This document shows, in pieces, positions 25,895 through 26,019 of a stretch of 64,000 bases of DNA. Positions within the stretch are counted from its first letter, which is position 1, and the number at the start of each line of letters is the position of its first letter. The DNA comes from Agromyces tardus. Lineage in GTDB: Bacteria > Actinomycetota > Actinomycetes > Actinomycetales > Microbacteriaceae. The DNA lies in the NCBI RefSeq assembly GCF_003710805.1, contig NZ_RHHB01000006.1, forward strand, positions 62,001-126,000. Reading direction: 5' to 3'. Below the pieces are notes generated by a model. It did not search any database. It was not told the DNA's origin and worked only from the letters and a program-made list of their open reading frames with translations. The position numbers were made by a program, and so were the translations under genes.

Positions 25895-25924
25895 GGGGTG
25901 CTCTTCTCGCTATTCGGGGGTTTC

Positions 25925-26019
25925 AGCCGACGACGAACTCCGCAGCGAGGGAGGCCTGTGAACTAGGACTCGCTGCGGCAGCTAAGGAGAAGCAGGCCGT
26001 GAAGCACGCGTCAAGGCTA
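25925..26019 (-). promoter_or_regulatory. leuA attenuator leader region
   Basis: From the -10 hexamer TAGCCT (26019-26014) transcription would start at the leader GTG. Complementary segments: CCGCAGCGAG inside the leader peptide gene (minus strand of 25969-25978) pairs perfectly with CTCGCTGCGG (minus strand of 25940-25949), and GGCCTG (25993-25998) pairs with CAGGCC (25953-25958). The Leu-codon segment CTTCTC (25987-25992) can also pair with GAGAAG of the leuA ribosome site (25903-25908). Alternative pairings driven by ribosome stalling on Leu codons are the standard attenuation logic. Confidence 0.75.
25963..26007 (-). CDS. Leucine leader peptide of leuA
   Basis: A 14-residue reading frame MLHGLLLLSCRSES. 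Five of its first eight codons are Leu and four are consecutive (CTG CTT CTC CTT at 25995-25984). The GTG start lies 6 nt after a TAGCCT -10 element, so the mRNA is probably leaderless. The stop TAG is 69 bp before leuA. Position, length and codon content are those of a branched-chain amino-acid leader peptide; expression has not been shown. Confidence 0.8.
   Translation of the reverse strand: MLHGLLLLSCRSES

Follow-up and report, generated by a model that had tools for sequence, protein, structure and literature searches.

The closest described system is the LEU element, which lies upstream of leuA in most actinobacteria and combines a leader peptide, a run of leucine codons and a pseudoknot (Seliverstov et al. 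2005, PMC1262725). That study, which included Leifsonia xyli, already described a base stem between the leucine codons and the leuA Shine-Dalgarno sequence. Several individual leaders are on record as well. The available part of PMC8079986 describes leuL1 of Streptomyces lividans (MRFGLLLLSCRGEGL, then a stop codon) as leaderlessly transcribed and without a typical Rho-independent terminator; leuA leaders are reported in corynebacteria (available text of PMC4046766 and PMC5784534), and the accessible portion of PMC4974804 includes a ribosome-protected upstream ORF before leuA in Mycobacterium abscessus. The mycobacterial leaderless short ORFs of Canestrari 2020, as cited in PMC13236596 and PMC9094748, are leaderless sensor ORFs too, but for cysteine; translation attenuation of the cysteine genes is spoken of in the accessible text of PMC13236596. 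The ilvB-II motif of Corynebacterium, according to the accessible text of PMC10272879, likewise places an upstream ORF rich in branched-chain amino acids before a branched-chain gene, but its terminator and antiterminator stems are unlike the leader studied here. leuA is absent from the main texts of PMC9094748 and PMC4633059.

The window, by which we mean the whole analyzed stretch of 64,000 nucleotides from Agromyces tardus, contains such a leader upstream of leuA. This leader is a LEU element, with the Leu run, a candidate pseudoknot, the pairing of Leu codons with the Shine-Dalgarno sequence and the lack of a clear terminator known for that kind (PMC1262725). A preliminary description of the locus had considered the arrangement worth detailed study; it is real, yet it matches the element published in 2005, and its core idea has been known since then. 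Like leuL1 of S. lividans, a different species, as described in the available part of PMC8079986, it lacks a typical terminator and is leaderless, in our case by prediction. Its parts are as follows.

26014..26019, minus strand: TAGCCT, a -10-like box of the form TAnnnT, 6 nt 5' of the leader GTG (sequence)
25963..26007, minus strand: leader ORF, GTG to TAG, encoding MLHGLLLLSCRSES (sequence; aligned with 45 relatives)
25984..25995, minus strand: sensor codons CTG CTT CTC CTT, the final CTT ending 5 nt 5' of stem P1
25987..25992, minus strand: 5' strand of base stem P0, CTTCTC, two Leu codons (swap tests, leuA set)
25969..25978, minus strand: 5' arm of stem P1, CCGCAGCGAG, inside the leader ORF (76-sequence alignment)
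25953..25958, minus strand: 5' strand of pseudoknot helix P2, CAGGCC, in the P1 loop (helix backed by relatives)
25940..25949, minus strand: 3' arm of stem P1, CTCGCTGCGG, 10 bp with the 5' arm (76-sequence alignment)
25924..25928, minus strand: 3' strand of pseudoknot helix P2, GGCTG (helix backed by relatives)
25903..25908, minus strand: 3' strand of base stem P0, GAGAAG, the leuA Shine-Dalgarno sequence (sequence; swap tests)
24119..25894, minus strand: leuA, 2-isopropylmalate synthase, 591 aa (ORF; NCBIfam TIGR00970 and NF002991 above cut-off)

The leader ORF runs from GTG (26007-26005) over 14 codons, four consecutive ones for leucine, to a TAG (25965-25963) that sits in the P1 loop. Comparable leaders occur in relatives, and the preliminary description had both the peptide and its coordinates right. 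The position of TAGCCT would predict a leaderless transcript starting at GTG 26007; this start, also proposed earlier, is backed by the box-to-start gaps of related leaders given below, and a generic sigma-70 scan found no promoter at the window leader. GAGAAG ends 8 nt 5' of the leuA ATG (25894) and is a perfect 6-bp complement of CTTCTC, as had been pointed out. The encoded LeuA shares 91% identity with its Agromyces fucosus counterpart. Rfam 15 models found just two tRNAs at gathering score in the window and no T-box, leader or riboswitch, and a comparison with eight element loci gave one irrelevant match (E 0.61) and no matching family.

How widespread is the element? A leader was found upstream of leuA in all 81 loci examined (the window and the 80 nearest named ones, mostly Microbacteriaceae, with at least five records labelled otherwise: L027, L048, L063, L077 and L080), in 79 by script and in two by eye. 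These two, L026 and L064, failed the peptide filter, in L064 with a broken Leu run (LRLL); both have by eye a TAnnnT box 6 nt 5' of the start codon. A covariance model built from 46 leaders detected elements in 262/296 genomes of the class (E ≤0.01), and a broader model, R2, matched 80/84 class genomes. In a sample of 60 genera of Microbacteriaceae, counting elements within 300 nt upstream with strict filters that may lose weak ones, the element preceded the best LeuA match in all 57 genomes having one and five of seven second leuA copies; three further matches fit neither leuA nor leuC (E 4.5e-4 to 0.0064). The broader model matched 10 genomes of the class and six others in a phylum sample (n=119), and the unmatched genomes among those listed were all from other classes. 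The only strong match outside the class in this sample (G394:C191:4077-4175, E 7e-9) could reflect transfer or contamination. Weak matches in the A. tardus genome itself (L091, E 0.81; L229, E 0.037), as well as L240 and L241 (E about 0.009 and 0.008), were set aside as chance or other things.

For the structural comparisons, 184 elements were reduced to 121 non-redundant ones at 80% identity. For alignment A1, a length limit left 59 of 78 distinct leaders, and 46 of these were picked by hand; alignment A2 holds 76 of the 121 elements, limited per group and leaving out loops of more than 24 nt. L091 was dropped, L089 and L139 were removed as duplicates, and L116, L181 and L182 were excluded before the structure tests for a wrong automatic stem; loci L200-L248 lay outside these tests.

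Stem P1, the 10-bp pairing of CCGCAGCGAG with CTCGCTGCGG noticed at the outset, is borne out by covariation. In the 76-sequence alignment, 99.6% of the 760 cells are paired and six of the ten pairs have changed on both sides, a level that 0/500 shuffles reach. P1 presumably corresponds to the first helix of the 2005 pseudoknot, compared via the text of PMC1262725. The single-sequence fold of the window leader is no stabler than shuffles (z −0.73), as one would expect if a chance ORF had met a chance stem, but this explanation is contradicted by the P1 covariation, the conservation throughout the class and the presence of the element before leuA in 57/57 family genomes, and we regard it as practically negligible.

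Three of the ten P1 pairs are invariant across the 76 sequences, so that the sequence is conserved beyond the needs of pairing. This conservation would suit a regulatory-protein binding site, with the pseudoknot bound by orthologues of ML1624, which carry a DEAD-box helicase domain, and the peptide a by-product. The authors of the 2005 study preferred this explanation from mutation data and a phylogenetic profile (PMC1262725). A pure protein site, however, needs no open frame, and three features of the element speak for the frame. A sensor codon ends exactly 5 nt 5' of P1 in all 121 non-redundant elements (Leu in 115, Ile in six), and wherever an in-frame start was found (116/121) the stop lies inside the P1 loop (116/116), a uniformity that is partly selected, since leaders of this kind went into the search models and CCGC was favored by the stem finder. 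In addition, the sensors become mixtures of Val, Leu and Ile before leuB while the scaffold stays constant. We therefore consider a protein site with a by-product peptide rather improbable.

The second helix is where our analysis departs from the preliminary description, which had proposed two overlapping pairings, the 10-bp stem and a 6-bp pairing of GGCCTG (25998-25993) with CAGGCC (25958-25953). The former stood and the latter did not: its letters are present, but own strands pair no better than exchanged ones (own −8.45 vs swapped −9.11 kcal/mol, n=121), and within leuA elements of Microbacteriaceae pairings of this type gave no support either (own −8.00 vs swapped −8.09, n=48). By comparison among relatives, the conserved second helix is instead P2, formed as in an H-type pseudoknot between the 3' portion of the P1 loop and a stretch that mostly lies 10-15 nt past the 3' arm of P1. 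Its letters differ among relatives and still match (GACCGGC/GCCGGTC, GGGCC/GGCCC, GAGAGGCC/GGCCTCTC, CTAAGCC/GGCTTAG). A P2 score of at least 15 was reached by 75/121 elements with their own strands, vs 20.6 with shuffled and 33.3 with swapped strands. The duplex energy of own strands (−15.35) was better than that of strands exchanged between species (−13.25), with 0/2000 permutations as good, in swap tests that leave shared ancestry in. The result held for leuA elements alone (0/2000) and leuB elements alone (1/2000); leuC elements alone gave no support (381/2000). P2 is weak in the window, with 4 bp (GGCC/GGCT) or a bulged CAG(G)CC/GGCTG. An alternative helix between the 5' arm of P1 and downstream sequence scored 3/2000 overall, but 119 and 108/2000 within subsets.

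The same swap tests lend moderate support to P0 in the leuA set. Own pairs are more stable than swapped ones (−10.93 vs −9.97, n=95; 1/2000 permutations as good), also when a wider start region is allowed (−13.69 vs −12.63; 0/5000), and these values are to be read with the caveat that CUCCUU would find a partner in nearly any purine-rich ribosome site. No support for P0 was obtained for leuC (476/2000) or, before leuB, for pairing between the sensor codons and the start region that follows (1575/5000).

The choice of leucine codons agrees with a pairing role. In the 79 leaders of the window and of 78 of the 80 nearest named loci, the final Leu codon is always CTT, against a share of 2.7% among the Leu codons of the accompanying leuA genes, where CTG (54.5%) and CTC (38.3%) dominate. 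The last three Leu codons of these leaders comprise 149 CTT, 84 CTC and 4 CTG (of 237), and the fourth from the end is CTG in 39/52. Fifty-nine other leaders of the class show a similar picture (CTT 87, CTC 75, CTG 15; in their leuA genes CTG 66.3% and CTT 2.5%), and in the wider leuA set the final codon is CTT in 86/95 and CTC in 9/95. CTT and CTC are read by one shared tRNA, and hence the excess of CTT is not explained by tRNA choice. The bias agrees with a U/C-rich strand being maintained to pair with the purine-rich ribosome site; slow decoding of CTT may be a rival reason for it. The gap between the TAnnnT box and the start is 6 nt in 72, 7 nt in six and 9 nt in one of the 79 leaders, which were selected for having such a box 5-9 nt from the start. 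In the leuA set of the class sample, for which no box was required, 69/73 have one within 2-15 nt, often at 9-10 nt.

How would such a leader control leuA? We consider it somewhat probable that the window leader acts as a leucine-responsive translational attenuator. RNA polymerase would start at the GTG, and a ribosome would enter at the 5' end and read the Leu codons. When leucine is plentiful, the ribosome would open P1, halt at the TAG that lies in its loop and depart, after which the RNA would refold to the P1/P2 pseudoknot closed by P0; the Leu codons would then mask the leuA Shine-Dalgarno sequence, and leuA would be poorly translated. When leucyl-tRNA is scarce, a ribosome held on the Leu codons would prevent P0 from forming, and leuA would be translated. 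Translational attenuation is the likeliest reading because there is no terminator, the Leu codons lie opposite the ribosome site, the start is predicted to be leaderless and the pseudoknot stands at a fixed distance. Control of leuA at translation had been suggested before, and by comparison it remains the best reading. Comparison of sequences supports the anatomy, P1, P2 in relatives, the fixed gap between codon and stem and the CUY codon bias; the start site, stalling, masking and the direction of control are what we infer from them. Mutation data from Streptomyces speak against attenuation. As relayed by PMC1262725, leader mutations of S. coelicolor leuA had some effect that was inconsistent with classical attenuation (Craster et al. 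1999), and PMC1262725 concludes that Leu-codon mutations do not influence regulation; we know these data second hand.

The ribosome position could also act on transcription, by setting whether Rho or RNA polymerase stops in the leader. Classical attenuators before leuS and terminator leaders before ilvB occur in the same group (PMC1262725), and one of our loci looks like such a case: L235 (G005:C215), a weak model match (E 0.0086) rejected as a LEU element, is a leuS leader (LeuS above the cut-off) encoding MQVELLLSPPR, followed by eye by a G+C inverted repeat and a T-run, and it resembles the classical leuS attenuators reported for Streptomyces. The window leader has no terminator-like site (G+C hairpin with U-run; 0 found), as the preliminary description had said, and the S. 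lividans leuA leader is likewise said to lack a typical terminator in the available part of PMC8079986. Transcription attenuation is an unlikely explanation for this leader. A further idea is that leader translation senses nothing and merely supplies leuA with ribosomes through reinitiation or coupling. Reinitiation has been proposed for short leader genes near a structural gene, in actinobacteria among others, with a peak at 10-11 bp (accessible text of PMC4833913); the 68 nt from TAG to ATG in the window are far from this peak, and the Leu run and pseudoknot would serve no purpose, which leaves the idea very improbable.

Translational attenuation may extend beyond leuA. The text of PMC1262725 places the element before leuA alone, apart from a match to a B. 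longum transposase; it contains no occurrence of leuB, and we saw no leuC gene in it. The listings and passages seen in our search of the open literature describe no LEU-type element before leuC or leuB. The occurrence of the scaffold before these two genes therefore seems to be new. The regulator NdgR binds leuC and leuB in S. coelicolor (accessible part of PMC4340878), which is a different layer of control from the leader element.

The A. tardus genome has a second element, C72, before leuC (LeuC above the NCBIfam cut-off), with the leader MRAAALLLRCRGGASF. An element precedes leuC in all 14 Microbacteriaceae genomes of the class sample and in 40/57 genomes with leuC in the sample of 60 genera; among LeuC matches of at least 81% identity, 18/58 lack it. 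Before leuB the element was found in 26 genomes from seven families outside Microbacteriaceae, a lower bound for the sample, as it draws on the second matches of genomes with multiple matches. A LeuB frame was seen downstream in 24/26, and all five examples checked were above the NCBIfam cut-off; L161 and L176, where the sequence stretch ended, were assigned by leader and small ORF. The leuB-associated leaders, such as MRSVFVLIDCRGEA, MRHIFVLRCRGGAR and MLWSVRILSCRDEAR, have Val, Leu or Ile sensor codons.

In 24/26 cases the element and leuB are separated by a small ORF of 27-53 codons, found by pattern, with related endings (DRRDNGGETGH, DLRDNGGQRPDDN; often RRDNGGETGH or LRDNGGQRPDDN, for example in L154, L156, L135, L170 and L194). 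Six of the small proteins gave no NCBIfam match, and one of the six a sub-threshold Pfam match. In L154, L156, L165 and L193, leuB appears by eye to have its own leaderless start, and in some genomes the small ORF may itself be what the element controls directly. The nearest element of each leuC element is another leuC element (14/14), and the same holds for leuB (19/19), which suggests old duplications rather than recent copying, although related genomes share such clustering trivially.

We think it reasonably probable that the LEU element represents one instance of a modular type of pseudoknot attenuator used throughout the class, in which a constant scaffold with exchanged sensor codons stands before leuA, leuC and leuB; every step in leucine synthesis would then read its own tRNA signal. 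The scaffold would consist of a leaderless or near-leaderless start, a sensor ending 5 nt 5' of P1, a stop in the P1 loop and the helix from the loop to downstream sequence; the sensors would be mainly Leu before leuA and leuC and mixtures of Val, Leu and Ile before leuB, where the unit usually opens with the small ORF. An element known from one gene since 2005 thereby becomes a candidate regulon-wide device. The leuB versions represent a natural sensor swap. With geometry and codon rules defined exactly, direct tests of how leuA is controlled, a matter still unsettled, become feasible.

Two observations concern the region upstream of the leader. A 12-bp G+C palindrome (GCGGATGCCGCG/CGCGGCATCCGC) at 26067-26099, between an upstream permease-like ORF and the leader promoter, is touched by 23/25 genome matches of one search of the A. 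tardus genome, and a similar palindrome lies at window position 63166; the stretch is a candidate dispersed repeat or terminator-like hairpin. In L020, L041, L064 and L078, the frame directly 5' of leuA ends by eye like a response regulator (VVYAYEHGL and similar). In the window (26141-30167, minus strand), an ORF with a similar ending lies farther from leuA, separated from it by frames that look by eye like an ABC ATPase and a permease.
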